Shown in pieces: positions 43,662-64,000 of a stretch of 64,000 bases of DNA. This stretch comes from Brachybacterium sp. EE-P12 (GTDB lineage: Bacteria > Actinomycetota > Actinomycetes > Actinomycetales > Dermabacteraceae). The stretch covers positions 1 through 64,000 of the forward strand of contig NZ_QXCP01000003.1 of NCBI RefSeq assembly GCF_003711805.1, in the 5' to 3' direction. Positions within the stretch are counted from its first letter, which is position 1. Each line of letters starts with the position of its first letter. The notes beneath the pieces were generated by a model that was not told where the DNA came from, searched no databases, and saw only the letters and a list, made by a program, of their open reading frames with translations. The translations under genes and the position numbers were made by a program.

Positions 43662-43678
43662 GAGGACATGGTCCCCCG

Positions 43679-47073: not shown

Positions 47074-47986
<913 letters not shown>

Positions 47987-47990
<4 letters not shown>

Positions 47991-48916: not shown

Positions 48917-48926
48917 GGCCTCCTCC

Positions 48927-49913
48927 TCAGCCCCGCGCCCTGGTGCGCGGATCGATGACGCCGTACAGCAGGTCGACGGCGAGGTTCGCCGCCAGCACGG
49001 AGACCGTGATGATGAGGAACAGCCCCTGCATGAGCGAGTAGTCGTTGTTCTGGACGGACTGGAGCATGGTGAAGCCGATGCCGGGATAGGAGAACACCGA
49101 CTCCACCACGATCGATCCCGAGACGACGAAGCCGAGCGAGATCGCGAAGCCGGAGACGCTGGGCAGGACGGCGTTCCGGGCGGCGTAGGTGAGCATGATG
49201 CGGCGCGGGTGGAGGCCCTTCGCCTCCGCGGTGAGGATGTAGTCCTCGCTCAGCGTCGAGACCATCATGTTGCGCATCCCCAGCAGCCACCCGCCCAGCG
49301 AGCTCAGCACGATCGTGAGCGCGGGCAGGAAGGCGTAGTACATCGCGTTCGACACGAACGGGTAGTCCAGCGCCGGGCGCACGAGCGTCACGTCGTAGCC
49401 GCCTGAGATCGGGAACAGACCCAGGTTCACGCTGAGCGCGTAGACGAACAGCAGTGCGAGCCAGAAGTAGGGCACGGACTGCATGATCGTGGTGGCGGGG
49501 ATGAGCGAGTCCAGCCAGGTGCCGCGCTTCCAGCCGGCGAGAGTGCCGAGGGTGATGCCGATGAGGAAGGTGATCACCGTGGAGACGCCCACGAGCACCA
49601 GGGTCCAGGGCAGGGACTGGCCGATCACCTGGGAGACCGGGGTCGGGAAGTAGGTCACCGAGATGCCGAGGTCACCGCCCAGCAGGTTCGCGAGGTACTG
49701 GACGTACTGCTGCAGGAGGGAGCCCTGGTCATCGGCACCGAGCATCACCTCGATGGCCTCCCGGGTCGCGGGATCCACGGGGCCGCGCAGGGCGAGCTTC
49801 GAGAGCACCGCGTCGACCGGGCTTCCCGGCAGCGCGCGGGGGATGAAGAAGTTGAGGGTCACGGCAGCCCAGAGGGCGACCAGGTAGAAGCCGAGCTTCC
49901 GGAGAACGTGCAC
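48927..49913 (-). CDS. ABC transporter permease (DppB type)
   Basis: A 328-residue permease starting MHVLRKLGFYLVALWAAVTLNFFIPRALPGSPVD (1-34), the standard DppB/OppB entry. It has six helices and the EAA loop DYILTAEAKGLHPRRIMLTYAARNAVLPSVSG (about 226-257). RBS GAAAGGACC precedes ATG 49913. It is separated from the binding-protein gene by 65 bases containing a stable hairpin, a common device for making more binding protein than permease. Confidence 0.92.
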   Translation of the reverse strand: MHVLRKLGFYLVALWAAVTLNFFIPRALPGSPVDAVLSKLALRGPVDPATREAIEVMLGADDQGSLLQQYVQYLANLLGGDLGISVTYFPTPVSQVIGQSLPWTLVLVGVSTVITFLIGITLGTLAGWKRGTWLDSLIPATTIMQSVPYFWLALLFVYALSVNLGLFPISGGYDVTLVRPALDYPFVSNAMYYAFLPALTIVLSSLGGWLLGMRNMMVSTLSEDYILTAEAKGLHPRRIMLTYAARNAVLPSVSGFAISLGFVVSGSIVVESVFSYPGIGFTMLQSVQNNDYSLMQGLFLIITVSVLAANLAVDLLYGVIDPRTRARG

Positions 49914-49945
49914 CGCGGTCCTTTCGTCGACGATGGGCGGGGCAG

Positions 49946-49971
49946 GGGCGCCGCCGACCTCGGCGGCGCCC
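49946..49971 (-). promoter_or_regulatory. Intercistronic hairpin between binding-protein and permease genes
   Basis: GGGCGCCGCCGA (49946-49957) pairs perfectly with TCGGCGGCGCCC (49960-49971), leaving CC in the centre (in practice a slightly larger loop). It follows the binding-protein stop by 8 bases and has no T-run, so it more likely stabilises the upstream message or attenuates than ends transcription. Confidence 0.55.
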
Positions 49972-49978
49972 GGCTCCC

Positions 49979-51670
49979 TCAGACGGGGACGACGGTCTTG
50001 AGGACCTGGGCGTTGTCCGGGGCGGACCAGGACATCGGATAGCAGTACAGGTCCTCCTGCGTGGGCCAGCCGGTCACGCGGGAGTTGTTGTACTCGGTGA
50101 GGCTCGAGCCGATCAGCACAGGGATGTAGGGCAGCTGCTCGCTGACGATCTGCTGGATGATCGCGTACTGCTCCTTCTTCACCTCCGGGTCGTCGGTGCC
50201 GGCGGCGACGGCGAGAGCGGCGTCGACGTCGGGGTCGGAGAAGCGCGCCGAGTTCTGGTACGGGTCACCGTTCTCGCCGACGGGAACAGTCGACTCGGTG
50301 CTGAAGAACGTGTGGTAGAGGTAGTACGGATCCGGTGCCGGACCCTGGCCGAGCGAGTCGATGACCAGCTGGAACGTGCCGGTCGACTTCGCGTCGTTCC
50401 ACTCGTTCACGGAGACCTGCTGGGGCACCAGCTCGATGCCGACGGACCGGTACTGCTCGGCGAGGGTGTCCAGGGCGGTGACGAAGTCGGACCACCCGGT
50501 GGGGCAGCTGACCGTCATCGACAGCCGCTCGCCGTCCTTCGCATAGATCCCGTCGGGGCCCTCCTCGTAGCCGGCCTCCTCGAGCACGGCGCGGGCTGCG
50601 TCGACGTCCGCGTTCCACGGGGCGACGTCGATCGAGGGATCGATGAAGTCGGCGTCGCGCTCGGGCAGGGCGAAGGCAGGGGAGATGTCGGTGCCCATGT
50701 CGTAGAAGGCGAGCTTCGAGAGCTGCTCGCGATCCATCCCGAGATAGAGGGCGCGCCGCACGGCCGGATCCGTCTGCGGCCCCTCGCAGCCGAGGTCCGG
50801 ATTGCTCGCGGCGAACAGGGCGCACTGCGAGGTGGGGGAGTTCGTGTAGCTGAGATCGGGATTGTTCGCCACGTGCTCGTCGAGATTCGGCATGGAGGTG
50901 GAGGTGTAGTCGATCTCGCCGGCCAGCCACTTGTCGGTGGCGGACTGGTTGCCGGACAGGGACTGCACGCGCACTCCGCCGATCGCGGGCTTCCCCTCCT
51001 CCCAGTACTCGCCGTTCGCGTTCAGGAGATAGGACTCCGGGGTGAAGTCGCCGAGGGCGAAGGGGCCGGTTCCGACCGGCTCCTCGTTGGTGTAGGTCGC
51101 GAGGTCCTCGACCTCGCCCCAGAGGTGCTCGGGGATGATCCAGGTGCGGCCCAGCGCATTGGGCCCCTCGACGAAGGAGGGCGCCGGGTAGGTGAGCACG
51201 ACGGTCGTGTCGTCGCTCGCCTCTGCTCCTGGGGCGGTGCCGGCGGGGTTCAGGGTCTCGTTGTCCTTGATCGCGTTGAAGGTGAAGGCGACGTCGCCCG
51301 CGGTGAAGGGGGTGCCGTCCGTCCAGCTCACCCCGGAGCGCACGGCCACGGTGAGCACCGTGCCGTCCTCGTTCCACTCGAAGCTCTCGCCGAGCTGGGG
51401 CACGGGGTCCACGTCGATCGCGGCGAGCGGGTTGTAGTAGAAGAGCGGCTCGTAGATCAGGCCCTGCACCATGGACAGCACGGTCGGGGAGTGGGGGTTG
51501 AAGTTCTTGGTGAAGCCGGCTCCGGCTCCGTTGTAGCAGTTGACGATCGGCAGGTCGGCGCCGTCGCCGCTGCCGTCGTCGAGGTTGGACTGCCCGCCGC
51601 AGGCGGCCAGGGCGACGGGGACTGCGGTGGCGAGGGACAGGGTGCCGAAGGTCCGACGGGTGAGGTGCAT
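49979..51670 (-). CDS. ABC transporter substrate-binding lipoprotein (family 5, oligopeptide/oligosaccharide type)
   Basis: A 563-residue extracellular binding protein. LTRRTFGTLSLATAVPVALAAC is a twin-arginine-like signal with lipobox Cys24. The mature protein is a family-5 (DppA/OppA-like) binding protein: FNPHSPTVLSMVQGLIYEPLFYYNP, FTAGDVAFTFNAIKDN, TNEEPVGTGPFAL and WNADVDAARAVLEEAGYEEGPDGIY are landmarks. Related proteins in Thermotoga and actinobacteria bind beta-mannosides, cellobiose or other glycans as well as peptides. The downstream GH2 beta-mannosidase makes manno-oligosaccharides the leading candidate. GGAGAG precedes ATG 51670. It is divergent from the ROK gene. Confidence 0.92.
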   Translation of the reverse strand: MHLTRRTFGTLSLATAVPVALAACGGQSNLDDGSGDGADLPIVNCYNGAGAGFTKNFNPHSPTVLSMVQGLIYEPLFYYNPLAAIDVDPVPQLGESFEWNEDGTVLTVAVRSGVSWTDGTPFTAGDVAFTFNAIKDNETLNPAGTAPGAEASDDTTVVLTYPAPSFVEGPNALGRTWIIPEHLWGEVEDLATYTNEEPVGTGPFALGDFTPESYLLNANGEYWEEGKPAIGGVRVQSLSGNQSATDKWLAGEIDYTSTSMPNLDEHVANNPDLSYTNSPTSQCALFAASNPDLGCEGPQTDPAVRRALYLGMDREQLSKLAFYDMGTDISPAFALPERDADFIDPSIDVAPWNADVDAARAVLEEAGYEEGPDGIYAKDGERLSMTVSCPTGWSDFVTALDTLAEQYRSVGIELVPQQVSVNEWNDAKSTGTFQLVIDSLGQGPAPDPYYLYHTFFSTESTVPVGENGDPYQNSARFSDPDVDAALAVAAGTDDPEVKKEQYAIIQQIVSEQLPYIPVLIGSSLTEYNNSRVTGWPTQEDLYCYPMSWSAPDNAQVLKTVVPV

Positions 51671-51766
51671 CGTTGCTCTCCAGGTGACGCGGCGGTGCGT
51701 AGGGGCGGTGAGTGCGGAGCGGCGGCCGACTCCGGCCGTCGTGCGGGGGTCACTGCGATGTGACTA

Positions 51767-51787
51767 ACTTCAGTAACTTAATGAAGT
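51767..51787. promoter_or_regulatory. Palindromic operator in the ROK/binding-protein gap
   Basis: ACTTCA (51767-51772) and TGAAGT (51782-51787) are perfect arms around 9 bases, inside the only AT-rich patch of the 230-base gap (51671-51900). It is well placed for a ROK repressor controlling the mannoside operon and itself. Exact -35/-10 boxes are not clear. Confidence 0.55.
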
Positions 51788-51900
51788 GATTGGAGTATGC
51801 GACCATCTTCACGTCGCGTCAACACCGAAGCCGCTCCCGCGATCGTCACGAAGACGTCACGATCGGAGCGCACCACCGATCCGCCACAGACAGGGGTCCC

Positions 51901-52965
51901 ATGCCCGCGCTCATCTCCCGCAGCGGCGCCGCGACGGACGCCGCGATCCTCGACGCCATCCGTCGTGAACCCGACACGACCCGCATCGCGATCGCCCGCG
52001 CGCTCGGGGTCACGCCCGCGACCGTCACGAACTCGGTGAAGCGGCTGCTCGCCGACGGGCTCGTGGTCGAGAGCGGACGCGCCCGCTCCACCGGCGGGAA
52101 GCCCGCCTCCCTCCTGCGGGTCTCCACCACCTCCCGCTGGGCCATCGGCTGCACCGTCGAGAGCGACCGGATCGCACTGGTCGCCATGGGGATCGGCGGG
52201 GCCCTGCGCGGGCGGGTCATGATGCCGTTGCGGCCCGCAGCCAGAGCCGAGGAGATCCTCGACGAGCTCGAGCGGGCCCTGCGATCACTGGGTGCGCTCG
52301 AGAGGACCGAGCGAGCCGCTTTCCGGGGCATCGGGCTGGCCGATCTCCGTCCCGGGTCCGAGGGGATCTCGGCGCTCATCACGCATCTCGAGGAGCTCAC
52401 CGATCGCCCCGTCGTGCGCGGCACCCCTGCCGTGTGCGCCGGCCTGGGAAGCGAATGGGTGGGCGAGCAGCCTGGCGGTGAGCCCTGGCTGACGGTCCAC
52501 CTCGGCCCCACCGTCGGCATCGCGCTGCTGATCGACGGCCGGCCCCTGCTGCCGTGGGGTGGGGCGAGCGGCGAGCTGGCGGTCGACGGCGGCGGCATCG
52601 CCGCCGACGTGGACCGGGCGCTCGCCGCCGGGCTCGCCTCCCGGATCCACCTCGACGCCGCCGAGCAACGGGTGATCACCGCCCATGCCCGGCTCACCGA
52701 GGCCGCCGCGCACGGGGACTCCGATGCGACGACGATCGTCACCGAGGGGGCGACGTGCATAGCCCGCGCCGTGGCCGGGCTGATCGCGCCGCTCGGGGTG
52801 CGTCGGGTGATGGTCAGCGGGACCAGCGTGGCGATGGCCCCGCGGCTCTATCTCGAGGCGATGACGGCCGTGCTGCCCGACGAGACCCGGCTGCGGGTCT
52901 CGACCGTGCAGCCCCATCCCTGCGCGGTGGGGGCGGCGGCACTGGCCCTTGCGCACCAGGACTGA
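51901..52965 (+). CDS. ROK-family-like transcriptional regulator with degenerate sugar-kinase domain
   Basis: A 354-residue regulator. The MarR/ROK-type winged HTH is at about 12-65 (AILDAIRREPDTTRIAIARALGVTPATVTNSVKRLLADGLVVESG). The rest follows the ROK fold (WAIGCTVESDRIALVAMGIGG, GIGLADLRPG, GAASGELAVDG-like segment), but two ROK hallmarks are missing. The ATP-binding D-x-G-x-T is degenerate, and the zinc motif C-x-C-G-x-x-G-C is absent, so it is a sensor rather than a kinase. ATG 51901 follows AGGGG; an upstream ATG at 51790 lies in the operator region and lacks a site. It is divergent from the oligosaccharide-binding protein gene and convergent with the GH42 gene. Confidence 0.82.
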   Translation: MPALISRSGAATDAAILDAIRREPDTTRIAIARALGVTPATVTNSVKRLLADGLVVESGRARSTGGKPASLLRVSTTSRWAIGCTVESDRIALVAMGIGGALRGRVMMPLRPAARAEEILDELERALRSLGALERTERAAFRGIGLADLRPGSEGISALITHLEELTDRPVVRGTPAVCAGLGSEWVGEQPGGEPWLTVHLGPTVGIALLIDGRPLLPWGGASGELAVDGGGIAADVDRALAAGLASRIHLDAAEQRVITAHARLTEAAAHGDSDATTIVTEGATCIARAVAGLIAPLGVRRVMVSGTSVAMAPRLYLEAMTAVLPDETRLRVSTVQPHPCAVGAAALALAHQD

Positions 52966-53027: not shown

Positions 53028-55073
53028 TCAGTCCTCCACGAGCTCGACCGGGGCATCCGGAGCGAGGGTCAGCACCGCCGCTCCGCCTTGTGCGAGACGC
53101 AGCCCGTCCCGGGCCGAGGCACCGGTGATCAGGTCGTCCCCGACGGCGCGCACCGTGAGCGGGCGCTCTCCGTGATGCAGCAGGAACAGGAAGTCCATAC
53201 CGTCCCCGCGCCGACGCACAGCCTCCAGCCCGGCCTCCGCAGCGCCGGGCAGGGTCGGACCGATGCCGAGCTCCGCGGCGATCTCTGCGAGACGGCGGTC
53301 CCGGGCCTCCTGGGTCCACCCCGCAGAGACGTAGACGGCTCTGCCCTCGCCGCGACGGGCGCGGGTGACGGCGGGCAGCCCGGCGAGGTCGCCGTGGGTG
53401 TAGCGCGCGAGCACCTCGGCGTCCTCGACCCCGAGCAGCTCCGTCCATCCCTCGACCTCGCTGCCGTCGGAGAGCGCGACCCGTTCCCCGGCGGGCAGCG
53501 GCAGCAGCTCCTGGCCGCGCACCCCGAGCAGGCGCCGCAGCCGGCCCGGGTAGCCGCCGGTCGCGATGCGGAGGTGCTCGTCGGCCAGGCCGCTCAGGTA
53601 GGTGACCACGAGCTCCCCGCCGCCCTCGACGTACTCCTCGAACCAGCTCACCTGGTCGTCGCTCAGCGGGTACTGGGCCGGGACCACCAGGAGGCGGTGC
53701 GCGGAGAGGTCAGCGAGCGGCCGGACGAAGTCCACCGGGATCCCGGCCCGCCAGAAGGAGCGGTGCGTCGCGCGCACCTCCGCGGAGTAGGTGAGGTGGG
53801 AGGAGGGGAGGTCCGGCGTCTCCAGCGCCCACCACCCGTCGGCGTGCCAGAGGATCCCGACCTCCGCCCGCACCAGCGGGCCGTCGGCCGGAAGCGCCGC
53901 GACCGGCGCGAGGCGCTCCAGGATCCCGCCGAGCCGCGCGATGGAGGCGAACACCCGCGAGCGACCTCCCGCGTGCGGGACCAGCGCACCGTGCCACTGC
54001 TCCGCTCCTCCCGCGCTCTGGCGCCATTGGAAGAACAGCGAGGACTGCGAGCCGCGGGCGATATAGCCCAGGCTGTGCCGGATCATGCGGTCCGCGCCCT
54101 TGGCCAGGGTGCGGCCGTCCACGCGGATGCCCGTCGCGTTCTGCTCCATGAGCACCCATGGCCCGCCTGACCAGGAGCGCGCCAGGTCGGAGCCGTAGGC
54201 GACGTGCGCCTCCGCATCGGGGCCGGCGGTGTCCAGGTAGTGGTCCAGCGAGACCACGTCCTCCCGCTCGGCCCAGGACCACTGCTCGAGATGGTTCCAG
54301 GTGGGCAGCATGAAGTTCGTGGTCACCGGTGCGGTCGACCCTGCGGCGCGGATCTCCTCGCGCTGCTCGACCATCGCCGCGAGCATCTCGTCGGAGCTGA
54401 AGCGGCGGAAGTCGATCGCCTGGGAGGGATTGGGCAGGTACTGGGTGGTGCGCGGCGGCGTGATCTCCTCGAAGGAGGCGTAGCCCTGGGACCAGAACGC
54501 CGTGCACCAGGCGGCGTTCAGCGCCTCGATCGTGCCGTACCGGTCCTCCAGCCACGCCTGGAAGGCGTGCTCGGCGTGCGGGCCGTGGTCGAGGGTGCCG
54601 TACTCGTTGTGCAGGTGCCAGCCGCGCAGCCCCGGATGGTGCCCGTAGCGGTCGGCGAGACGGCGGGTGATCCGTCGGGCGGCCTCCCGGTAGGCGGGGG
54701 CGCTGATCGCGTAGGTGTCCCGGGAGCCGTGGGTGAGGCGGACGCCGTCGGGGCGCACCGGCAGCGCATCGGGATGGGCGCGGGTGAACCAGGGCGGCGG
54801 CGAGGCGGTGGGGGTGGCCAGGAAGAAGCCGATGCCCGCGTCGGCGAGGCGCTCGAGGATCTCGTCGAGCCAGTCGGTGACGAACGCTCCCTCCGTCGGC
54901 TCGAGAGCCGACCAGGAGAACACCCCGAGGGTCACCGTGTTCACCCTCGCCTCCTGCATCAGGGCGAGGTCCTCCTCCCACGTGGCCCGGTCCCACTGCT
55001 CCGGGCTCCAGTCCCCGCCGAAGAGGATCTGCCCGGGGGCGAAGCCGCGGCGGTGGGCCTGCTCGACGCTCAT
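53028..55073 (-). CDS. Beta-galactosidase (GH42)
   Basis: A 681-residue glycoside hydrolase family 42 enzyme cleaving terminal beta-galactosides. The barrel begins ILFGGDWSPEQWDRATWEEDLALMQEARVNTVTLG (16-50). The acid/base is Glu157 in HLHNEYG and the nucleophile is Glu310 in VLMEQNATG. The trimerisation domain (about 395-600) and a small C-terminal beta-domain follow. No signal peptide is present. Its ATG overlaps the alpha-xylosidase stop by four bases. As the last gene of the GH3-GH31-GH42 operon it would remove galactose, for example from galactosylated xyloglucan oligosaccharides. Confidence 0.93.
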   Translation of the reverse strand: MSVEQAHRRGFAPGQILFGGDWSPEQWDRATWEEDLALMQEARVNTVTLGVFSWSALEPTEGAFVTDWLDEILERLADAGIGFFLATPTASPPPWFTRAHPDALPVRPDGVRLTHGSRDTYAISAPAYREAARRITRRLADRYGHHPGLRGWHLHNEYGTLDHGPHAEHAFQAWLEDRYGTIEALNAAWCTAFWSQGYASFEEITPPRTTQYLPNPSQAIDFRRFSSDEMLAAMVEQREEIRAAGSTAPVTTNFMLPTWNHLEQWSWAEREDVVSLDHYLDTAGPDAEAHVAYGSDLARSWSGGPWVLMEQNATGIRVDGRTLAKGADRMIRHSLGYIARGSQSSLFFQWRQSAGGAEQWHGALVPHAGGRSRVFASIARLGGILERLAPVAALPADGPLVRAEVGILWHADGWWALETPDLPSSHLTYSAEVRATHRSFWRAGIPVDFVRPLADLSAHRLLVVPAQYPLSDDQVSWFEEYVEGGGELVVTYLSGLADEHLRIATGGYPGRLRRLLGVRGQELLPLPAGERVALSDGSEVEGWTELLGVEDAEVLARYTHGDLAGLPAVTRARRGEGRAVYVSAGWTQEARDRRLAEIAAELGIGPTLPGAAEAGLEAVRRRGDGMDFLFLLHHGERPLTVRAVGDDLITGASARDGLRLAQGGAAVLTLAPDAPVELVED

Positions 55074-57124
55074 GACTCGCCCCTGACCAGACGCAGCGGC
55101 GCGGAGCCGGCGCGCGCGAACAGGCCCAGCGAATGCACGTCGTAGCGGCGGCGCAGGAAACGGCCGCCGTCTCCGGTATCGACCTCCTCGCCGTCCAGCA
55201 GGTGCACCCAGCGTCCGGCGGGCAGGTACACGTCCACCTCCCCGGTCCCGGTGAAGACCGGGGCGACCAGGAGGTCCTCGCCCAGCATGTACTGGGTGTC
55301 CAGGGTGCGGCAGGCGGGATCCTCGGGGAACTGCAGCACCATCGAGCGCATGAGCGGCGCGCCCGTGCGGGTGGTCCGGTCAGCGGTCTCCAGGAGGTAG
55401 GGCATGAGCGTCTGCTTGAGCGTGGTGAACTCGCGCATGACCTCGACGGCCTCCTCGTCGAACAGCCACGGCACGCGGTACGAGTTCGAGCCGTGCAGGC
55501 GGGAGTGGGAGCTGAGCATCCCGAAGGCGACCCAGCGCTTGAACACCGTCGGGTCCGGGGTGCCCTCGAAGCCGCCGATGTCATGGCTCCAGTAGCCGAA
55601 TCCGGAGGAGGTCAGCGACAGCCCGCCGCGCAGAGACTGCGCCATCGCCACATAGGTCGACTCGCAGTCCCCGCCCCAGTGGATCGGGAACCGCTGCCCA
55701 CCGGCCGTGGCCGAGCGGGCGAAGACGACTGCCTCCCCCGTCCCGAAGCGCCGCTCGAGCAGTTCGAACACCGCCTGGTTGAACCGGGAGGTGTAGTAGT
55801 TGTGCTCCCGCAACGGGTCCGAGCCGTCGTGCCAGCGCACCCCGTCCACCGGGATGCGTTCGCCGAAGTCGGTCTTGAAGCTGTCCACGCCGTCATCGAG
55901 GAGCTTCTCGAGCGCGCTCGTGTACCAGGCGGTGGCCTCGGGGTTCGTGAAGTCGACGAGCGCCATCCCGGCCTGCCACAGGTCGCTCTGCCAGATCGAC
56001 GGCTCGGGTCCGTCGTCCTTCAGGAGCAGGTAGCCCTTCTCCGCGCCCTCGGCGAACAGGCGGGAGCGCTGCGCGATGTACGGGTTGATCCACACGCTCA
56101 CGTGCAGGCCGCGATCGTGGAGCTTGCGCAGCAGCCCGCGCGGGTCCGGGAAGGTCGCGGGATCCCAGACGAAGTCGGACCAGTGGAAGCCGCGCATCCA
56201 GAAGCAGTCGAAGTGGAACACGCTCAGCGGGATACCGCGCTCGGCCATGCCGTCCACGAAGGACAGCACCGTCGCCTCGTCGTACTCGGTGGTGAACGAG
56301 GTCGACAGCCACAGACCGTAGGACCAGTCGGGGACGGCGGGCGGGCGGCCGGAGCGGGCGGTGTAGCGGTCGAGGACCTCGAGCGGGGTGCCGCCGCCGT
56401 AGACCTCGTACCGCAGTCGCTCTCCGGGCACGGAGAACTGGGTGGCGGAGACGTTCTCGGAGCCCACCTCGAAGGACACCGGGCCGGCATCGTCCACGAG
56501 CACGCCGTAGCCCCGAGAGGACAGGTAGAAGGGCACGTTCTTGTAGGCCTGCTCGGAGTTGGTGCCGCCGTCGGCGTTCCAGATGTCGATGCTCTGCCCG
56601 TTCTTCACGAAGGCGCCGAAGCGCTCTCCGAGTCCGTACACGTGCTCGCCGACGTCCAGGGACAGCTGCTCGTGGACGAAGGGGCCCTCGCCCTCGACCT
56701 GTGCGTACCCGATCGAGCGCTCGGTCGAGGAGGTGAGGACCTCCCCGTCCCACAGGTAGTCGACATGCCACGGCCCGGACAGGGCGATCCGGGCTGTCAG
56801 GCGTCCCGAGGAGAACTCGACGACCTCCCGCTCGTCATCGCGATGGATCCGCGGGGTCACCGGGGCGTCCTCGAGGACGAAGCGGGGGCGGGACTGGCGG
56901 TGCCCCGCGAAATGCTCGATCTCCACGGCGATGACGTCCTCCCGCGGGGCGGCGAAGCTGACCGTGATGACCGGGGTGTTCAGGGTGTCCCCGCGCGTGA
57001 GGATCCGTGTGACCGGTGCGTGCACGCGCAGCTCGTCGCCGCGCTGCTCGACGTCGTGCACGCCTGCAGGTCGCTGCAGCGTCACCCCGTCGCGGATCAG
57101 CCAGTAGCCATTGGTGAATTTCAT
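55070..57124 (-). CDS. yicI: Alpha-xylosidase (GH31, YicI type)
   Basis: A 684-residue glycoside hydrolase family 31 enzyme. The nucleophile is Asp419 in SFKTDFGERIP, the motif specific to alpha-xylosidases, and the acid/base is Asp486 in IHWGGDCEST. Both positions agree closely with E. coli YicI. The N-terminal beta-domain (about 1-230, including FHGLGERFG-like VYGLGERFGAFVKNGQ) and C-terminal beta-domains are present. There is no signal peptide. GAGGAG precedes ATG 57124. It removes alpha-xylose from the non-reducing end of isoprimeverose-like units, fitting xyloglucan oligosaccharide breakdown with the adjacent beta-galactosidase and GH3 enzyme. Confidence 0.94.
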   Translation of the reverse strand: MKFTNGYWLIRDGVTLQRPAGVHDVEQRGDELRVHAPVTRILTRGDTLNTPVITVSFAAPREDVIAVEIEHFAGHRQSRPRFVLEDAPVTPRIHRDDEREVVEFSSGRLTARIALSGPWHVDYLWDGEVLTSSTERSIGYAQVEGEGPFVHEQLSLDVGEHVYGLGERFGAFVKNGQSIDIWNADGGTNSEQAYKNVPFYLSSRGYGVLVDDAGPVSFEVGSENVSATQFSVPGERLRYEVYGGGTPLEVLDRYTARSGRPPAVPDWSYGLWLSTSFTTEYDEATVLSFVDGMAERGIPLSVFHFDCFWMRGFHWSDFVWDPATFPDPRGLLRKLHDRGLHVSVWINPYIAQRSRLFAEGAEKGYLLLKDDGPEPSIWQSDLWQAGMALVDFTNPEATAWYTSALEKLLDDGVDSFKTDFGERIPVDGVRWHDGSDPLREHNYYTSRFNQAVFELLERRFGTGEAVVFARSATAGGQRFPIHWGGDCESTYVAMAQSLRGGLSLTSSGFGYWSHDIGGFEGTPDPTVFKRWVAFGMLSSHSRLHGSNSYRVPWLFDEEAVEVMREFTTLKQTLMPYLLETADRTTRTGAPLMRSMVLQFPEDPACRTLDTQYMLGEDLLVAPVFTGTGEVDVYLPAGRWVHLLDGEEVDTGDGGRFLRRRYDVHSLGLFARAGSAPLRLVRGES

Positions 57125-57194
57125 CGGAGTACTCCTCGGAGGTGGACTGCTCGGGCGTCCAGGTGTCCTGGTGCGCGGGGTGAGGGGGCGGTGT

Positions 57195-57211
57195 CCCGGC
57201 GATCGGCCGGG
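57195..57211 (-). promoter_or_regulatory. Small hairpin between GH3 and GH31 genes
   Basis: CCCGGC (57195-57200) pairs with GCCGGG (57206-57211) around GATCG, in the 94-base gap directly after the GH3 stop. It is a weak candidate for message processing or partial termination. Confidence 0.3.
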
Positions 57212-57218
57212 TCGGTGA

Positions 57219-60116
57219 TCAGCGCTGCTGCGTCACGAGGCCGGTCATGGCGAGCGGGCCGACGAGTCGTGCGCGGACCCGCCCGGTGGGCCGTCCCCGT
57301 TCGGAGGGCACGGTGTGCGGCAGCGACAGGCTCGGCGTGGTCGCGGGGTCTGCGGCGGCGGGGTCGATCAGCTCGACGCGGGAGGCGGGCTCGTCCTCGG
57401 CGCCCAGCGGGCGGCTCTCCAGCGAGGTGACGACGGTGCCGGCGTCGAGCACGAAGTCCGCCCAGCCCGGCGCGGTCCCGGTGGGGCGCAGGTCGGTGCC
57501 GGCCAGGAGCGTGAGCGCGCCGCGGGCGAGCCCCGAGGTCTCCTCGGCCCGCTCCGCGGGGACGCGGCCGGGGCGGGCGAGCGGCACCGGGGCCTCCTCC
57601 CGCACGACGGCGGGGACGCGCACCTCGTGGGAGGAGACGGCATCGGTGCTGGAACGGGCGACCCGGATGGTCACCGGTCCGTCCGGCAGCTCCCAGCCCT
57701 CGCGGTCCGGGGCGAACAGGGCCAGGCGGTCGAACGGGACCAGGAGCCGGACGGTCGTCGTCCCCTGCTCGGCGACCTCGCTGGTCGCGAAGCCGACGAG
57801 CCGGGTGCGGGGGGCCGCGTAGCGGCGCCGGGAGAAGGAGTCGACCGGGACGTCGGCATAGACCTGGACGATCTCGTGGAGCGGGCCCGCGGTATGCCGC
57901 GAGGGCGGCGGGGAGAGTGTGACCTCGACCTGCAGGCCGTCTGCCGTGGCCGTGACCTCGCTCCGCTCCCATCGCGGGCGGTCGATCGCGAGGCCGTGGC
58001 CGAAGGCGAAGCGTGCCTCCTGGCCGTACAGGTAGGTCGACGAGGTGGTGATGACGTCGTAGTCCAGGACGGACGGCAGCGGCGCGGAGCCGGGCCAGGT
58101 CTGCGCGAGCCGCCCCGAGAAGCTGCGGCGCCCCGTCAGCAGGTCGGCGAGGGCGGTGCCCTCCGCCTCCCCGGCATGGCTGGACCACACCACGGCCCCC
58201 ACCCGGTCCTCGAGCCCCTCGAGGTCGTAGGGGTAGGAGGAGATGAGGACGAGGACGGTGGCGACGTCATCGGGGAGCGCGGCGAGCCGCTCGGCCGCGG
58301 CGCGGGCGGGGGCGGGCAGGCGCACGTCCGGACGGTCCTCGGTCTCCCGGCCGTGGACGTGGGGGTCGTTGCCGAGCACGAGCACGACGGTCTCGGCGCC
58401 GCGCGCGGCCGCGTCGAACGCCTCGCGCCCGGAGTGATGCTCAGCGACCGTGAAGGGGACGGCGGAGCCCGGCCGGTGGTCACGCAGCACGAGGGCGCCG
58501 CTTCGGTGCTCGACCCCGACCGACCGGCCGGAGCCGAGGTGCTGCAGGCGCCAGGTGCCGCCCGGCTCCCTCGTGCGGCGGAAGGTCTCCTGGGCGACCC
58601 AGCCGCCGATCCGGTCGGCGCACGCGGCCAGGCGTCCTCGCTCGTCGGGGGCGACCAGGCGCTGCGTGGAGGTCTCGCGCAGCGCGATCACGTCGTCGTC
58701 CAGCTCGAGCACCTCGAGGCGCGCGGCCTCGTGCGAGAGCGGGGCGGGGCCGTCCGCGGCCGGCCGCTTGCAGCGCAGCGAGGAGTCGGCGGCCAGGAGC
58801 ACCGGGTCGGCAGAGACGGCGTCGGGGCAGACGCCCCCGGGGGCCGGTGGGAGCGGCGCGGACAGCGAGATCCGGTCCAGCGCCCGTGACGTGACGACGT
58901 CATGGCCCTCGGAGCGGCTCCGCAGCGCGTCGGCCAGGGGCGTGGCGTCGTGGAAGTCCCCGCTGTACCAGTCGCGCAGGACGGTGTGCGCCCGCTCGCC
59001 GAGCACCGCGGTGCGGCCCGGCCTCAGGGGCAGCGCCTGCGGGTCGCGTCGTGCCAGGAGCACTGCCGAGCGGGTGGCGACCTCGCGCGCCAGGGCGTGC
59101 GCGGCCACCCGGTCCACGGGCGCGGACGGCGCCGGGGAGTCGTCGAACTCCCCGGTGCGGGCGCGGGCCACGAGCTGGCGCACCACGGCGCGATCGAGGT
59201 GGGACTCCTCGATCAGCCCCTGCTCGAGCGCGTCGGTGAGCGCGGCGACGGTCTCGGTGGGATCGGCGTCGTTGTCGGTGAAGGAGTCCACGCCCGCGCG
59301 AAGCATCGCGGCGTACGCCTCGGGGGCGCCCGGGACGACCCCCTGGGTGCGGAACAGGTTCGAGGGAGCGCCCGCGTCCGAGACCACGAAGAGCAGATCG
59401 GGGTCCGGCAGCCGGGAGCGCAGCTGCGACTCCAGCAGGTCGGTGAGGTGGGCCGGTCGCCCGTTGACGAGGTTGTAGGAGAGCATCACGGAGGCGGCCA
59501 GGCCGCGCACCAGCGGTTCGAGGTGCCCGGGCAGCTCGTACTCGTGGAGCACCCGCGGGGAGAGGTCGGAGCTCGTCGCGTCCCGGTCGGTCTCGTTCGA
59601 GTAGGCCAGGAAGTGCTTGAGGGTCGGGAGGGTCGTCCACGTGTCTCCCTCGCCGCGCAGCCCGCCCGAGAAGCCGCAGGCCAGTTCCGCGTTCAGGAGC
59701 GGATCCTCCGAATAACCCTCCTCCGTGCGGCCCCACAGCGGATGGCGAAGCGGATTCACCACGGGCGCCCACACATCCAGGCTGGTGCGGGGATCTGCCG
59801 CGTGCAACGCGCGCACCTCGGAAGCGATCGCGGCGCCGACCTCTGACAGGAGCTCCGGGTCCCAGGACGCGGCCATCCCGACCGGTTGGGGGAACTGGGT
59901 CGCCGGCCCCCTCCAGGCCACGCCGTGCAGGGCCTCGGTACCGGTGACGAAGGGGGCGATGCCGAGCCGGGCGACCCCGGGGGAGTGCTGGTGCAGCTGG
60001 GCGATCCTCTCCCGGACCGTCATGGCGGCGACCGTGCGGCGCGCCCATTCCAGGCGTGACAGGTCCTGCGGGGAGACCTCGGCGACGGGGCGGGGACGGG
60101 ACGAGGAGGAGGGCAT
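57219..60116 (-). CDS. GH3 beta-glucosidase/beta-glycosidase with inserted beta-trefoil-like domain
   Basis: A 965-residue glycoside hydrolase family 3 enzyme. The N-terminal barrel (about 15-325) has GTEALHGVAWRGPATQFPQ, GRTEEGYSEDPLLNAELACGF, LKHFLAYSNE and the nucleophile Asp247 in VVSDAGAPS (usually SDW). The second domain (from about 340) is interrupted at about 440-558 by a repeat-rich beta insert (DSSLRCKRP, LVAPDERGRLAAC, GTWRLQHLGSGRSVGVEHRSGALVLR) that reads like a fascin-type beta-trefoil. After it come the acid/base region GRETEDRPD (about 590) and a fibronectin-III-like domain, plus about 150 extra C-terminal residues. No signal peptide. GAAGG precedes ATG 60116. First gene of the GH3-GH31-GH42 operon. 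Confidence 0.88.
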   Translation of the reverse strand: MPSSSSRPRPVAEVSPQDLSRLEWARRTVAAMTVRERIAQLHQHSPGVARLGIAPFVTGTEALHGVAWRGPATQFPQPVGMAASWDPELLSEVGAAIASEVRALHAADPRTSLDVWAPVVNPLRHPLWGRTEEGYSEDPLLNAELACGFSGGLRGEGDTWTTLPTLKHFLAYSNETDRDATSSDLSPRVLHEYELPGHLEPLVRGLAASVMLSYNLVNGRPAHLTDLLESQLRSRLPDPDLLFVVSDAGAPSNLFRTQGVVPGAPEAYAAMLRAGVDSFTDNDADPTETVAALTDALEQGLIEESHLDRAVVRQLVARARTGEFDDSPAPSAPVDRVAAHALAREVATRSAVLLARRDPQALPLRPGRTAVLGERAHTVLRDWYSGDFHDATPLADALRSRSEGHDVVTSRALDRISLSAPLPPAPGGVCPDAVSADPVLLAADSSLRCKRPAADGPAPLSHEAARLEVLELDDDVIALRETSTQRLVAPDERGRLAACADRIGGWVAQETFRRTREPGGTWRLQHLGSGRSVGVEHRSGALVLRDHRPGSAVPFTVAEHHSGREAFDAAARGAETVVLVLGNDPHVHGRETEDRPDVRLPAPARAAAERLAALPDDVATVLVLISSYPYDLEGLEDRVGAVVWSSHAGEAEGTALADLLTGRRSFSGRLAQTWPGSAPLPSVLDYDVITTSSTYLYGQEARFAFGHGLAIDRPRWERSEVTATADGLQVEVTLSPPPSRHTAGPLHEIVQVYADVPVDSFSRRRYAAPRTRLVGFATSEVAEQGTTTVRLLVPFDRLALFAPDREGWELPDGPVTIRVARSSTDAVSSHEVRVPAVVREEAPVPLARPGRVPAERAEETSGLARGALTLLAGTDLRPTGTAPGWADFVLDAGTVVTSLESRPLGAEDEPASRVELIDPAAADPATTPSLSLPHTVPSERGRPTGRVRARLVGPLAMTGLVTQQR

Positions 60117-60167
60117 GGCACCTTCTGACTGTCAGGACGGGAACGGGCGTCGGTGTCGGCGAGCGTC

Positions 60168-60229
60168 TTGCGAGCGTTCCTGGAGCGGAGTTAAGATCCA
60201 CCCTATCGAAACGCTTCGATGGTCGACAA
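60168..60229. promoter_or_regulatory. Divergent promoter pair sharing one LacI-type operator
   Basis: Plus strand: TTGCGA (60168-60173) and TAAGAT (60192-60197), 18 bases apart. Minus strand: TTGTCG (complement of 60224-60229) and TAGGGT (complement of 60200-60205), also 18 bases apart. The palindrome ATCGAA-ACGC-TTCGAT (60205-60220) covers the start site of the plus promoter and fills the spacer of the minus promoter. One repressor dimer would shut both operons. Confidence 0.7.
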
Positions 60230-60328
60230 GTCCCCTCAGGATCCGGGTCGAGCCGTCCCCCGGAGCTCGTCGATCCCCTGTGCGCCGAACGGCGGCGCAG
60301 CGTCCCCCACGAGGAAGTGAGCGCATCC

Positions 60329-62008
60329 ATGAACGTCCGACCGAACAGCCCTCAGAGCACCCGCAGCCTCCCGATGTCCCGCCGGAACGCCCTCGGCCTC
60401 GCCGGCCTCGGCGCCGGCTTCGCGCTGACCACCTCGGCCTGCGGTTCCGGAGGCTCCGGCGCAGGCGGGTCCGGGGGCTCGGCTGGAGGAGTCCTCACCG
60501 GCGCCGACCTCGCCGAGCAGGTGCAGGCGAACACCCCCTCCAGCGAGCTGTCCTTCCTGGTCGAGCCCGACTACCCGAGCGTGAACGGCTCGACCCCCGG
60601 CTATGCGGCGATGCCCTCCGAGTTCGAGACCTCCGTCCCCGACACGCCGGGCGCGGGCAGCACCTTCACCGTCATGAGCCCCGCCTGGTGGACCACGCCG
60701 CCGTCCCTGGGCGACAACGCCTACTACGACGCGGTGAACGAGGCGCTGGGGGCGACGCTCGACTTCCAGCCCTCCGACGGCAATGCCTACGCGGACAAGA
60801 TCCAGACCGTGCTCGCCTCCCCGCGGAGCATGCCGGACTGGATCGTGCTGCCCTCCTGGAACATCCCGCCGCGCTTCATCGAGGGCGTGGAGAACATGTT
60901 CTCGGACCTCACCGAGCACCTGCAGGGCGATGGCATCAAGGACTATCCGAACCTCGCCCGCCTCGACCCCGCCACCTGGCAGTACTGCATGTTCAACGGC
61001 CGGATCTTCGGCCTGCCCTATCCGTCCGAGCTCATCACCGACGCCCTCTTCTACCGGCGCGATCTCTTCGACGAGCTCGGCCTCGACGTGCCCACCAGCG
61101 CTGACGAGCTGCTCGCCGTCCTCGCCGAGGCGACGGACGCGAGCGCCAACCGCTGGGGATGCGAGGACATCTGGACCGGCATCCAGCTGCTCCACGGTCT
61201 CCCGCCGACCTTCCGCGAGGAGGGCGGGGCGCTCGTCCACCGGTTCGAGACGCCGGAGTTCAAGGAGGCGATCGCGCTGCTCACCGAGATCATCGCGCAG
61301 GGGTCGATGCATCCCGACGCCGTCGCCGGCACGGGCAACGCCAAGGACCGCTTCGAGGCGGGGCAGACGCTCGTCATGAACGACGGCGTCGGCGGCTGGC
61401 ACGAGGGCCTTGCCCGCGTGAGGCCGGGCAACCCCGACTACGACCCGATGGCCATGGACTTCTTCGCGCCGGACGGCGGCGACCCCGTCCTCTTCCGCAG
61501 CCACCCCGTCAACATCTTCTCCTTCCTGAAGAAGTCCGAGGACGAGGAGCGCGTCAAGGAGGCCCTGCGCATCGCCGACTTCTGCGCAGCCCAGTTCGGG
61601 ACCACGGAGAACACCCTCCTCAGCTACGGGGAGGAGGGCGTGCACCACACCCTCGACGACGACGGCGTCCCGCAGCTGACCGACCAGGGCAGCCGCGAGA
61701 TCACCTCCACCTACGAGTTCCTCGCGCAGCCCGCGATCTCCAACTCGGTCGTCCAGTTCCCGGAATACGTCCGCGACTCCTCCGAGTGGATGGCGCGGCA
61801 GTCCGAGTTCGTGCAGGAGCCGCTCTTCTTCGGGATCCAGATCCAGGAGCCCGCGAAGTTCGGCTCGCTCGGGCAGCCGATCGACGACCTCGTCGTCGAC
61901 ATCTCCCGCGGCCGCGCGAGCATCGACACCCTCGACGCCGCCGTCGAGAAGTGGCGCACGGACGGCGGCGACGAGCTGCGCGAGTTCTACGCCGAGTTCC
62001 TCGACTGA
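60329..62008 (+). CDS. ABC transporter substrate-binding lipoprotein (LplA/LipO type)
   Basis: A 559-residue exported binding protein. SRRNALGLAGLGAGFALTTSAC gives a twin-arginine-like signal and lipobox Cys38, followed by a Gly/Ser linker. The mature region (FTVMSPAWWTTPPSLGDNAYYDAVNEALG, DWIVLPSWNIPPRFIEGVENMF, NGRIFGLPYPSELITDALFYRRDLFDELG) is of the large LplA-type binding proteins that serve plant-polysaccharide oligosaccharides. GAGGAAG lies about 13 bases before ATG 60329. It is followed by two matching permeases and is divergent from the GH3-GH31-GH42 operon, sharing its operator. Xyloglucan-derived oligosaccharides are the likely cargo. Confidence 0.92.
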   Translation: MNVRPNSPQSTRSLPMSRRNALGLAGLGAGFALTTSACGSGGSGAGGSGGSAGGVLTGADLAEQVQANTPSSELSFLVEPDYPSVNGSTPGYAAMPSEFETSVPDTPGAGSTFTVMSPAWWTTPPSLGDNAYYDAVNEALGATLDFQPSDGNAYADKIQTVLASPRSMPDWIVLPSWNIPPRFIEGVENMFSDLTEHLQGDGIKDYPNLARLDPATWQYCMFNGRIFGLPYPSELITDALFYRRDLFDELGLDVPTSADELLAVLAEATDASANRWGCEDIWTGIQLLHGLPPTFREEGGALVHRFETPEFKEAIALLTEIIAQGSMHPDAVAGTGNAKDRFEAGQTLVMNDGVGGWHEGLARVRPGNPDYDPMAMDFFAPDGGDPVLFRSHPVNIFSFLKKSEDEERVKEALRIADFCAAQFGTTENTLLSYGEEGVHHTLDDDGVPQLTDQGSREITSTYEFLAQPAISNSVVQFPEYVRDSSEWMARQSEFVQEPLFFGIQIQEPAKFGSLGQPIDDLVVDISRGRASIDTLDAAVEKWRTDGGDELREFYAEFLD

Positions 62009-62049
62009 GCGTCGAGCGAGGTCATGAACAACCGAGGAACGGAGAGAGC

Positions 62050-63048
62050 ATGAGCACCGCGCCGACCGTGCAGGAGAAGGCAGATAGGGGCGGCCCCTCC
62101 GGGGGCCGCGCCCCCGCATCCCGTCCGCCCTCCCGCTCTGCGCCCTGGAGGACCCGCCTGCGCCGTGACCGGTCCCTGCTGCTGATGACGCTGCCGCTGG
62201 TCGTGCTGCTGCTGGTGTTCGCCTATGTGCCGATCCTCGGCAACGTGATCGCGTTCCAGGACTACTCGCCCTTCGTCGGGATCCGCAGCAGCGAGTTCGT
62301 CGGGCTCGAGAACTTCCAGCGGGTCATCGCCGATTCGGCGTTCTGGAACGCCGTGACGAACACGCTGATCATCACCGCGTTCCAGCTGGTGTTCTTCTTC
62401 CCCATCCCGATCGCGCTCGCGATCCTGCTGAACTCGATCCTGTCGGTGCGGATCCGCACCGTCATCCAGTCGATCGTCTATCTGCCCCACTTCTTCTCGT
62501 GGGTGGTCGTGGTCTCGGTCTTCTACCAGATCTTCGGCGGGGCGGGGATAGTCAACCAGTTCCTGCGCGGCATCGGTGCGCCGCCGTGGGACTTCGTGAC
62601 GAACCCGGACACCTTCCTGATCCTCATCACCTCGCAGATCATCTGGAAGGACGCGGGCTGGGGCATCATCGTCTTCCTCGCCGCGCTGAACGCGATCGAT
62701 CCGGGCCTGTACGAGGCCGCCGCGATCGACGGAGCCGGCAAGTGGAAGCGCATCTGGCACGTCACCCTGCCGGGGATGCGCTCGGTGATCGTGCTGCTGC
62801 TGATCCTCCAGCTCGGCAACGCCCTGTCCGTCGGCTTCGAGCAGCTCATCCTGCAGCGGGACGCGGTCGGTGCCGGGGCGGCGGAGGTGCTCGACACCTT
62901 CGTCTACTACACCGGCATCCAGAACGGCGACTGGAGCTATGCGGCGGCCGCCGGACTCATCAAGGGGGTGGTCAGCACCGTGCTGATCATCGCAGCGAAC
63001 AAGGTCGCCCACCTGCTGGGCGAAGCGGGGGTGTACCAGAAGGCATGA
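62050..63048 (+). CDS. ABC transporter permease (LplB type)
   Basis: A 332-residue permease with a Pro/Arg-rich cytoplasmic leader (1-40) and six helices. MTLPLVVLLLVFAYVPILGNVIAFQDYSPFVGI (about 46-78) is the hallmark first-helix region of LplB proteins, and the EAA loop is GLYEAAAIDGAGKWKRIWHVTLPGMRSVIV. GGAGAG precedes ATG 62050, 41 bases after the binding-protein stop. Its stop overlaps the next permease ATG (ATGA at 63045-63048). No ATPase gene is nearby. Confidence 0.93.
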   Translation: MSTAPTVQEKADRGGPSGGRAPASRPPSRSAPWRTRLRRDRSLLLMTLPLVVLLLVFAYVPILGNVIAFQDYSPFVGIRSSEFVGLENFQRVIADSAFWNAVTNTLIITAFQLVFFFPIPIALAILLNSILSVRIRTVIQSIVYLPHFFSWVVVVSVFYQIFGGAGIVNQFLRGIGAPPWDFVTNPDTFLILITSQIIWKDAGWGIIVFLAALNAIDPGLYEAAAIDGAGKWKRIWHVTLPGMRSVIVLLLILQLGNALSVGFEQLILQRDAVGAGAAEVLDTFVYYTGIQNGDWSYAAAAGLIKGVVSTVLIIAANKVAHLLGEAGVYQKA

Positions 63049-64000
63049 AGACCTCGACCGACCACGAACCCGACATCGCCCCGGCGATCGCGACGATCGA
63101 CGAGGGGCTCCCTCGGGCGCGCCGCCGCGCCGGCGGCCAGCGCCCCGCGTGGGACGAGGAGCCCGGCCTCGTCGTCAAGAGCGGCAAGGGGACCGTGCTG
63201 GTCCTCATCTGCCTGGTCATCCTGGGGCCGCTCTACACGATCATCCTCACGAGCCTGTCGCCGCAGTCCGCGATCACCGCCGCCGGCGGGCTCGTCATCA
63301 TCCCCGACGGGATCACGCTCGACGCGTACCGGCAGGTCCTCTCCGGCGGCGTGGTCACGCGGGCCGTGCTGGTCAGCATCGGCGTGACCGCCGTGGGGAC
63401 CTTCCTCTCCGTGCTGGTGTCCGTCCTGGCCGCCTACGGCCTCTCCCGACCGGGGACCTTCGCGCACCGGCCGATCCTGTTCCTGCTGCTGGGGACGATG
63501 TTCTTCGGCGCCGGGATGATCCCCACGTACCTGCTGGTCGACGCGCTGCACATGATCGACACCTACTGGGCGCTGATCCTGCCCACGGCGGTCAACGCGT
63601 TCAACATCATCATCATGCGCGGCTTCTTCCAGGGCATCGACCAGGGGATCCTCGAGTCCGCGCGCATCGACGGGGCCTCCGACTGGCGGATCCTGTTCCA
63701 GATGGTGCTGCCGATGTCCAAGGCGGTCGTCGCGGTGGTCTCCCTGTTCTACGCGGTGGGCTACTGGAACGCCTTCTTCAACGCGGTGCTCTACATCAAC
63801 ACCCCGGAGAAGCTCCCTCTGCAGGTGGTGCTGCGCTCCTTCGTGCTGCAGGGGGTCTCGGTGCCCGGGCAGGTGGACGTGGGCTCCGGCCAGGTGGCGA
63901 CGCTCGCGGTGCAGATGGCCGTCATGGTCATCGCACTGGTCCCGGTGCTCCTGGTGTACCCGTTCGTGCAGCGCCACTTCACCTCTGGCGTCATGATCGG
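63045..64000 (+). CDS. ABC transporter permease (LplC type), cut by the window end
   Basis: About 318 residues are visible with no stop before base 64000. The frame starts at ATG 63045, overlapping the previous stop by four bases. After a cytoplasmic leader (about 1-48), helix 1 is VLVLICLVILGPLYTIILTSLSPQSAIT. The gap GGLVIIPDGITLDAYRQVL is the LplC signature, and the EAA loop reads ILESARIDGASDWRILFQMVLPMSKAVV. The last visible residues HFTSGVMIG normally precede only a few more, so perhaps 5-10 codons are missing. It pairs with the LplB-type permease. Confidence 0.92.
   Translation, partial: MKTSTDHEPDIAPAIATIDEGLPRARRRAGGQRPAWDEEPGLVVKSGKGTVLVLICLVILGPLYTIILTSLSPQSAITAAGGLVIIPDGITLDAYRQVLSGGVVTRAVLVSIGVTAVGTFLSVLVSVLAAYGLSRPGTFAHRPILFLLLGTMFFGAGMIPTYLLVDALHMIDTYWALILPTAVNAFNIIIMRGFFQGIDQGILESARIDGASDWRILFQMVLPMSKAVVAVVSLFYAVGYWNAFFNAVLYINTPEKLPLQVVLRSFVLQGVSVPGQVDVGSGQVATLAVQMAVMVIALVPVLLVYPFVQRHFTSGVMI

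Follow-up and report, generated by a model that had tools for sequence, protein, structure and literature searches.

The general scheme of importing xyloglucan oligosaccharides and degrading them inside the cell is known from other bacteria, and published descriptions outline the systems closest to the one reported here. The Ruminiclostridium cellulolyticum cluster Ccel_2451-2458, which was proven on xyloglucan, encodes Gal42A, Glu3A, Xyl31A, the solute-binding protein (SBP) SBP2458, and two TMDs; GH42 is reported to act first, followed by GH31 and GH3 in alternation, and SBP2458 binds XXXG and not isoprimeverose (PMC4780118). In Anaerocellum (Caldicellulosiruptor) bescii, Athe_2052-2057 provides an XXXG importer whose 551-aa SBP binds this ligand with a Kd of 14 nM and has AlgQ1/2, FusA, and 5GX8 as its nearest folds (PMC12710961, PMC8579813). 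GH31 is combined with GH95 both in the Xanthomonas XyGUL (PMC8245568) and, as an alpha-xylosidase, in PUL-XylL of Bacteroides ovatus and the strain LL1355 enzymes (PMC4491172, PMC7176698).

Here, we describe an actinobacterial version of this scheme with its own switch. The window we analyzed is a 64,000-bp stretch of DNA from Brachybacterium sp. EE-P12 (NCBI RefSeq GCF_003711805.1, contig NZ_QXCP01000003.1, positions 1-64,000, forward strand), and its right end probably belongs to a xyloglucan-oligosaccharide utilization locus in which cytoplasmic breakdown follows import and a LacI protein represses from one operator. A first-pass annotation had named GH3, GH31, and GH42 enzymes opposite a divergent importer, and these genes are real, each enzyme exceeding its Pfam cut-off. 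The minus strand carries a GH3 glycosidase (57219-60116; 965 aa; PF00933, PF01915, and PF14310, each above cut-off), a GH31 alpha-xylosidase of the YicI type (55070-57124), and a GH42 beta-galactosidase (53028-55073; PF02449 and PF08532; PDB beta-galactosidase 9ta3 at E 4.6e-130) that overlaps the end of the GH31 gene by 4 bp. Diverging from them on the plus strand are a family 1 solute-binding lipoprotein (60329-62008; PF01547) with a lipobox-like LTTSAC at residue 33 and two ABC permeases (62050-63048 and 63045-64016, both PF00528), the second extending 16 bp outside the window. The annotation had also held that the matching LacI gene was absent from the region and had proposed a search for it; the gene lies 50 bp beyond the window's right end (contig 64050-65096, minus strand), out of view of that annotation, where it faces the importer 33 bp past the importer's end and encodes a helix-turn-helix (HTH, PF00356) and a sugar-binding domain (PF13377), and we therefore reject the idea of a missing regulator. 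Farther out on the contig lie a GH95 gene of the alpha-L-fucosidase family (65107-67422, minus; PF22124, PF14498, and PF21307), a ROK regulator (67464-68693, minus; ROK profile matches below cut-off), xylA (68807-70000, plus; TIGR02631 at 621 bits, cut-off 447), and a xylulokinase-like gene named by reading its sequence (70214-71623, plus).

In composition the locus resembles the R. cellulolyticum cluster, which likewise combines GH31, GH3, and GH42 enzymes lacking signal sequences with a divergent importer made of a family 1 SBP and two permeases and no ATPase gene (PMC4780118); GH95 is an addition here, and the likeness refers to gene composition. Because the R. cellulolyticum cluster handles xyloglucan oligosaccharides with this composition (PMC4780118), the annotation's proposal of an importer serving cytoplasmic enzymes of a xyloglucan type gains support. 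The A. bescii locus shares the importer and a GH31 gene, whereas Athe_1927, its GH42, and Athe_2072, a putative fucosidase, are encoded apart from the transporter locus (PMC12710961, PMC8579813). The Xanthomonas XyGUL also adjoins xylose isomerase and xylulokinase genes, but it is a Gram-negative system with TonB-dependent transporters, GH35 in place of GH42, and its own GH74 and esterase (PMC8245568). What sets the present locus apart is its regulator: for a seemingly identical set of enzymes and importer, the Firmicutes use, within the R. cellulolyticum cluster itself, a two-component system whose regulator is AraC-like (PMC4780118; XygS/XygR, PMC12710961) and, in A. bescii, predicted AraC-type regulators (PMC12710961, PMC8579813), in contrast to the LacI-family gene and the operator on both promoters found here. 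Our literature search, whose coverage left subscription papers and RegPrecise outside, recognized no actinobacterial LacI-controlled xyloglucan locus among the matches listed.

The predicted LacI operator is a palindrome, ATCGAAACGCTTCGAT, with an exact copy at 60205-60220 (no strand) in which seven of eight base pairs are symmetric, pair 7/10 being the exception. It is even, has a central CG, and overlaps the promoters of neighboring genes, as described for LacI-family operators in PMC4052901. The predicted importer promoter (TTGCGA-18-TAAGAT, 60168-60197, plus strand) has its -10 at 60192-60197, which places the start of the operator at about +1, as had been claimed. The predicted enzyme promoter (TTGTCG-18-TAGGGT, 60200-60229, minus strand) has its -35 at 60229-60224 and its -10 at 60205-60200; 15 of the 16 operator bases fall within its 18-base spacer and one lies on the -10, so the operator was rightly assigned to the spacer but does not fit it exactly, and the proposed geometry holds to within a base for promoters that are themselves consensus matches. 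Within the window, the palindrome would be moderate evidence only, because 0.19 matches with up to three mismatches are expected in 64 kb and 4 of 100 shuffled sequences reached two matches, and we rejected it as sufficient proof on the latter count.

It is conservation across loci that lifts the operator above chance. Four further families of the order contain the full locus. Of the 33 loci counted, 32 carry a matching site no more than 500 bp ahead of GH3, or 30 of 31 once two duplicate records are removed (L030, a second copy of L014, and L029, a second copy of L015); the count covers stretches with GH3 and thus leaves out L138 and L141. Further duplicates are L127 of L018, which was uncounted, L019 of L028, and L070 of L016, and two distant matches, L020 and L021, were dropped (E 9e-7 and 4e-5). 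There were 44 sites in 16,295 bp upstream of GH3 versus 9 in 608,939 bp elsewhere, a comparison in which the consensus came from our own site and the DNA elsewhere is mostly coding; the control palindromes, made by hand with another base composition, are a weak control. Promoters also tend to recur with the site: of 12 other loci sharing this importer, 7 have a TTG..A-17-TAC..T promoter at almost the same position as one of their two top predictions, and of 11 other Brachybacterium loci, 7 have a top-two prediction whose TA...T -10 directly adjoins the operator. The notion of a single operator serving two divergent promoters thus has strong backing from the order-wide comparison.

Site and regulator are conserved together, and in other genera a LacI gene occupies the same place. 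The site could instead belong to another LacI-family protein than the neighboring one, since further Brachybacterium genomes encode a LacI paralog (HTH STVSYMLSGDKP) preceded by the same core site, in two of three cases at the head of a permease-GH31 operon. We consider this extremely improbable: ATCGAANNNNTTCGAT occurs in a single place in the whole EE-P12 genome, where the palindrome site is unique, and the one siteless locus among 31 distinct loci (L146) also has no LacI gene, while the loci with a site and no LacI in view lie on short contigs (L016 and L069). With the neighboring LacI as the preferred regulator, adjacency, palindrome, and joint conservation together indicate a local repressor regulon of the LacI family, for which binding is predicted. 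The regulator also tracks GH31. Of 47 family genomes, 10 contain LacI (E<=1e-60), and GH31 (E<=1e-150) occurs in these ten and in one more, so that YicI-type GH31 accompanies this LacI in 10 of 10 genomes and occurs in 1 of 37 without it (Fisher p 2e-9, kinship ignored). In genome G014, GH31 lies elsewhere on the contig and a site stands about 50 bp upstream of it.

Isoprimeverose is a substrate of YicI-type enzymes, and the GH31 protein is firmly of this type: its score with the NF007940 alpha-xylosidase model is 1101 bits (cut-off 606), the top four PDB hits are all YicI (818-823 bits) ahead of a fifth at 331 bits, and it carries WGGDC at residue 483 as well as the previously noted FKTDFGE at residue 416. 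GH95 has the domains of its family and the Asn-x-Asn pair (TNINLEMN at residue 356). Its PDB scores include 2rdy at 415 bits, the xyloglucan fucosidase 7kmq at 343, and the L-galactosidase 4ufc at 286, the latter two differing weakly. A Thr occupies the second position ahead of the pair's first Asn; we rejected this Thr/His position as a specificity marker, as the Thr type occurs with both fucose and L-galactose specificities (PMC8245568). GH95 beside LacI, together with the xylose genes beyond it, would widen the substrate prediction to include fucosylated xyloglucan, whose side chain GH95, GH42, GH31, and GH3 match bond by bond.

We single out GH3 because its assumed role conflicts with an active-site residue. 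The enzyme has a nucleophile at Asp247 and an acid/base at Glu591 by alignment, no signal peptide seen by eye, and an AlphaFold2 model (pLDDT 88.5) whose second domain contains an all-beta insert (model residues 437-544) and which ends in an additional C-terminal beta domain. All 28 aligned homologues have Glu61, and the table of enzymes in PMC6987092 shows this position as Glu in beta-xylosidases and as Asp in beta-glucosidases. In NCBIfam, a beta-xylosidase model ranks first at 240 bits (cut-off 1250). Fold comparison lists beta-glucosidases and beta-xylosidases intermixed, and PDB searches do not separate the two. Glucose removal by GH3 is accordingly a weak and unproven step of the predicted pathway. 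It is conceivable, though we judge it unlikely, that GH3 combines a beta-xylosidase-type -1 subsite with a beta-trefoil-like insert and is not a beta-glucosidase, and that the locus degrades an alpha-xylosylated glycan other than ordinary xyloglucan by steps unassigned to any bacterial import pathway. Beta-xylosylated xyloglucan or a maize-type arabinoxylan side chain would be examples of such glycans.

Because the invariant Glu is typical of beta-xylosidases, arabinoxylan side chains stay a rival substrate. The locus would then import fragments of complex, maize-type glucuronoarabinoxylan, with GH31 removing alpha-xylose, GH95 acting as an alpha-L-galactosidase (an activity known for the family; PMC4491172), GH3 as a beta-xylosidase, GH42 releasing galactose, and xylose passing to XylAB. 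GH31 alpha-xylosidases and GH95 alpha-L-galactosidases do act on such xylans in B. ovatus and strain LL1355 (PMC4491172, PMC7176698), and the EE-P12 genome has six GH43 matches above cut-off and two GH51-type matches on other contigs. In the B. ovatus and LL1355 systems, however, xylanases and arabinofuranosidases stand alongside (PMC4491172, PMC7176698), and we recognized neither among our own genes read nor among the recurring locus families listed, which are those in at least three loci; ten of the proteins were searched in Pfam. These families are the importer, GH3, LacI, GH31, and GH42, with GH95, GH1, or an AXE1 esterase in some loci. A GH1 gene follows GH31 in 6 of 20 distant stretches (Pfam was run on one); GH1 enzymes are usually beta-glucosidases, and their presence fits a glucan backbone. 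The YicI type of GH31, the lack of GH10 in the genome, and, weakly, the higher GH95 score against 7kmq also speak against arabinoxylan, which we regard as quite unlikely. GH95 itself occurs in no more than 5 of the 20 distant stretches, and our genome and G020 are the only ones with it in a Brachybacterium locus; this counts against the xyloglucan reading, as does the L-galactosidase activity known for the family. The 20 stretches derive from 38 matches including our own genome and G008, of which the next 19 by score and G109 were taken and 16 left out.

The importer bears on a third reading, in which the locus serves only small alpha-xylosides such as isoprimeverose and its other enzymes handle unrelated beta-galactosides or beta-glucosides entering through the same importer. 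R. cellulolyticum Xyl31A acts on isoprimeverose (PMC4780118), and a genome profile search confined to GH5, GH9, and GH10 found no GH9 or GH10 and no GH5 above cut-off; the want of an endo-enzyme among these families also counts against the xyloglucan reading. We nevertheless hold this third reading very improbable, as the whole enzyme set is kept under one operator across families and the SBP model (AlphaFold2, pLDDT 85.0) groups with the large-oligosaccharide binders 5gub, AlgQ1/2, and FusA; it shares its nearest structures with the xyloglucan binder Athe_2052 (PMC12710961). PDB sequence and fold searches named no ligand for the SBP, and the matches listed did not include the xyloglucan SBP 9PMY.

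For the favored xyloglucan pathway, we propose that the polymer is cut extracellularly, perhaps by other organisms, and that the lipoprotein and two permeases import the branched oligosaccharides. The importer genes include no ATPase, and a shared MsiK-type ATPase encoded elsewhere would energize them; the genome has one OB_MalK ATPase match, on contig C18. In the cytoplasm, GH95 would act on fucose and GH42 on galactose, GH31 would release the non-reducing-end alpha-1,6-xylose, and GH3 would then take off the exposed backbone residue so that GH31 could act again, and the xylose would enter XylA/XylB. Without inducer, the LacI encoded beside the importer would bind the one operator and block the importer's +1 region and the enzyme promoter's spacer together. 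Such a pathway would offer this group of actinobacteria a testable means of living on a widespread polymer of plant walls that they scavenge, and it names the likely switch.

We also considered and rejected gain of the importer by our own genome: identities fit replacement in sister lineages better, because it is our importer type that occurs across the order.

The core of the locus stands as the first-pass annotation had described it: genes for GH3, GH31 and GH42 run leftward (GH3 and GH31 are separated by 94 bp, and GH31 and GH42 overlap by 4 bp), genes for a family-1 binding lipoprotein (SBP) and then two permeases run rightward, and the 212-bp divergent gap between GH3 and SBP contains the palindrome ATCGAAACGCTTCGAT at 60205-60220, the predicted promoters having been described correctly to within one base. 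The window is the initial 64,000 bases of a contig of 383,807 bp in a 3.96-Mb genome. Just beyond its end, at 64050-65096 on the minus strand, a LacI-family gene faces the importer 33 bp past the importer's stop, so the annotation's claim that the matching LacI gene is absent from the region is not supported. A GH95 gene (65107-67422) ends 10 bp before the LacI gene and is a fourth debranching enzyme belonging to the GH3/GH31/GH42 set; further on, a ROK regulator gene (67464-68693) is divergent from a xylose isomerase gene running in the opposite direction (68807-70000), which is followed by a xylulokinase-like gene (70214-71623). A heparinase-like gene, read by eye (L002:13059-14912), and another importer come after xylB, and homologues of the former lie near the locus in genomes G010, G022 and G025.

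Of the order's 396 genomes and 110 genera, 34 genomes and 16 genera have a match to the binding protein (E<=1e-150), and loci with both LacI and GH31 occur in four families besides that of our genome (f6, f9, f13 and f14). Among 20 distant stretches (out of 38 SBP matches, the 19 next in score after our genome and G008, and G109), LacI is present in 18, GH31 in 17, GH42 in 16 and GH95 in five, and a GH1 gene follows GH31 in six (Pfam was run on one). The usual layout places the operator or operators between GH3 and a divergent SBP-permease-permease set, with LacI facing the importer and then GH42-GH31. A site was scored where at least 12 of 14 positions match, and 32 of 33 GH3-bearing loci (30 of 31 without two duplicates) have one in the 500 bp immediately upstream of GH3; the sole exception, L146, also lacks LacI. 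Upstream of GH3 there are 44 sites in 16,295 bp versus 9 in 608,939 bp elsewhere, a comparison in which the latter DNA is mostly coding and the consensus derives from the site in our genome; four made-up control palindromes gave 0, 0, 2 and 0 sites in total. The LacI helix-turn-helix reads STVSY.[LM]SGKR.IS in all 29 sequences compared. Two sites, 115-269 bp apart, occupy the divergent gap in 12 of the 20 distant stretches, whereas in the window and in most Brachybacterium loci a single site is shared by both promoters (G010 has two). Ten distant loci (L134-L140 and L142-L144) have a pair of operators in this gap, separated by 142-195 bp, an arrangement that would allow one operator per promoter or a DNA loop.

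Within the family, LacI matches (E<=1e-60) occur in 10 of 47 genomes, all of them among the 11 with a GH31 match (E<=1e-150; Fisher's p = 2e-9, uncorrected for kinship), and the eleventh, G029, is 74% complete. A whole-genome search of the organism itself returned one place with ATCGAANNNNTTCGAT and one with TCGAANCGNTTCGA, so there is no exact core site on the LacI-GH95 side. The core TCGAANCGNTTCGA occurs at 27 sites in 16 of the 47 genomes, including all 11 with GH31, against 1 of 47 for the reversed control pattern. Thirteen of these sites lie upstream of GH3 at the locus, and nine precede either a second GH31 gene or a LacI paralogue: the paralogue heads an operon with a permease and GH31 in G008 and G016, it alone is visible after the site on a short contig of G026 (C426), and in G014 and G027 the sites directly precede GH31, the G014 gene being far off on the same contig with the site about 50 bp in front. 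One more lies at another LacI/permease operon of G008, and four (in G003, G017 and two in G044) have no reference gene within the 20 kb examined. In three stretches (L067, L120 and L125), a LacI paralogue whose helix-turn-helix has SGDKP rather than SGKRP is preceded by two operator-core copies; permeases and a GH31 gene come after it in L067 and L120, and in L125 the contig ends there. In G027 (L028/L068), GH3, SBP, GH42 and GH31 are each split into several tblastn pieces, as in a frameshifted assembly or a decaying pathway.

The side chain of fucosylated xyloglucan is Fuc-alpha-1,2-Gal-beta-1,2-Xyl-alpha-1,6 on a beta-1,4-glucan, and GH95, GH42, GH31 (of YicI type by sequence comparison) and GH3 would act on its bonds in turn. 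The predicted SBP structure (pLDDT 85.0) has large-oligosaccharide binders as its nearest folds (5gub, Z 20.7; AlgQ2, 20.5; AlgQ1, 20.3; FusA, 19.8; rmsd 4.4-5.1 A over 416-436 residues), and AlgQ1, AlgQ2, FusA and 5GX8 are reported as structural neighbours of the xyloglucan binder Athe_2052 (PMC12710961). R. cellulolyticum is described as combining GH42, GH3 and GH31 genes and a divergent importer without an ATPase gene; its SBP binds the xyloglucan oligosaccharide XXXG at 3.65 nM, and its purified enzymes dismantle XXXG with GH31 acting before GH3 (PMC4780118). The importer here likewise has no ATPase gene of its own, and the genome has one OB_MalK match. The locus probably works like known Gram-positive xyloglucan-oligosaccharide systems; in the literature searched, we came across no actinobacterial form under LacI control. 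Among the endo-enzyme families covered by profile searches (GH5, GH9 and GH10), GH9 and GH10 gave no match in the genome and GH5 none above the cut-off, which suggests that the organism may be a scavenger.

The annotation's main interpretation, a xyloglucan-oligosaccharide locus under one repressor, is partly supported, in its enzyme and importer set and its operator but not in the absence of LacI, and its weak step is the assignment of glucose removal to GH3. Position 61 of GH3 is Glu (TEALHG, aligned with GEALHG of the beta-xylosidase XlnD) and invariant in 28 of 28 aligned homologues; we infer that it corresponds to the residue that is Asp in the beta-glucosidases and Glu in the beta-xylosidases listed in Table 6 of PMC6987092, and to Glu89 of TrXyl3A, reported near O4 of bound xylose (PMC8913315). 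The nucleophile is followed by Ala, where Trp is reported for B. ovatus BoGH3B (PMC4967831). Since bifunctional GH3 enzymes with Glu are known (PMC6987092), Glu61 does not refute a glucose-removing role, and the enzyme may be either a glucosidase specific for xyloglucan or a beta-xylosidase. Its model (pLDDT 88.5) has an all-beta insert at 437-544, whose strand pattern, taken by itself, suggests a beta-trefoil. If GH3 is a beta-xylosidase, maize-type arabinoxylan side chains, on which GH31 and GH95 are also reported to act (PMC4491172, PMC7176698), become a serious rival substrate; however, we recognised no arabinofuranosidase or xylanase among the recurring genes of the loci, and the genome's matches to GH43 and GH51 sit on other contigs.

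By sequence identity, the enzymes and LacI of our locus have their nearest counterparts in G010, G019, G020, G022 and G025 (GH3 62-68%, GH31 83-86% and LacI 64-70% identity), and its importer is closest to those of G008, G014, G015, G026 and G027 (SBP 69-72%, permeases 75-86%). The former five carry other importers beside the same enzymes, with permeases at 32-52% where found. These pairwise identities suggest that one importer module has been swapped for another beneath a conserved operator, probably in the sister lineages.

On the GH42 side, four Brachybacterium genomes (L025, L056, L058 and L059) have an acetyl-esterase gene 3' of GH42, identified as AXE1 by Pfam in L059 and by similarity in the others; none was seen after GH42 in the window. 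A separate block at 41808-52965 adjoins GH42 there, with a ROK-type regulator and a family-5 binding protein first and then, read by eye, two permeases and two ATPases; it includes a LacI-type gene at 41808-42794 and a gene at 43679-46216 that resembles GH2 at the corresponding place in G019. This ROK/family-5 block is retained beside GH42 in G019 and G020.
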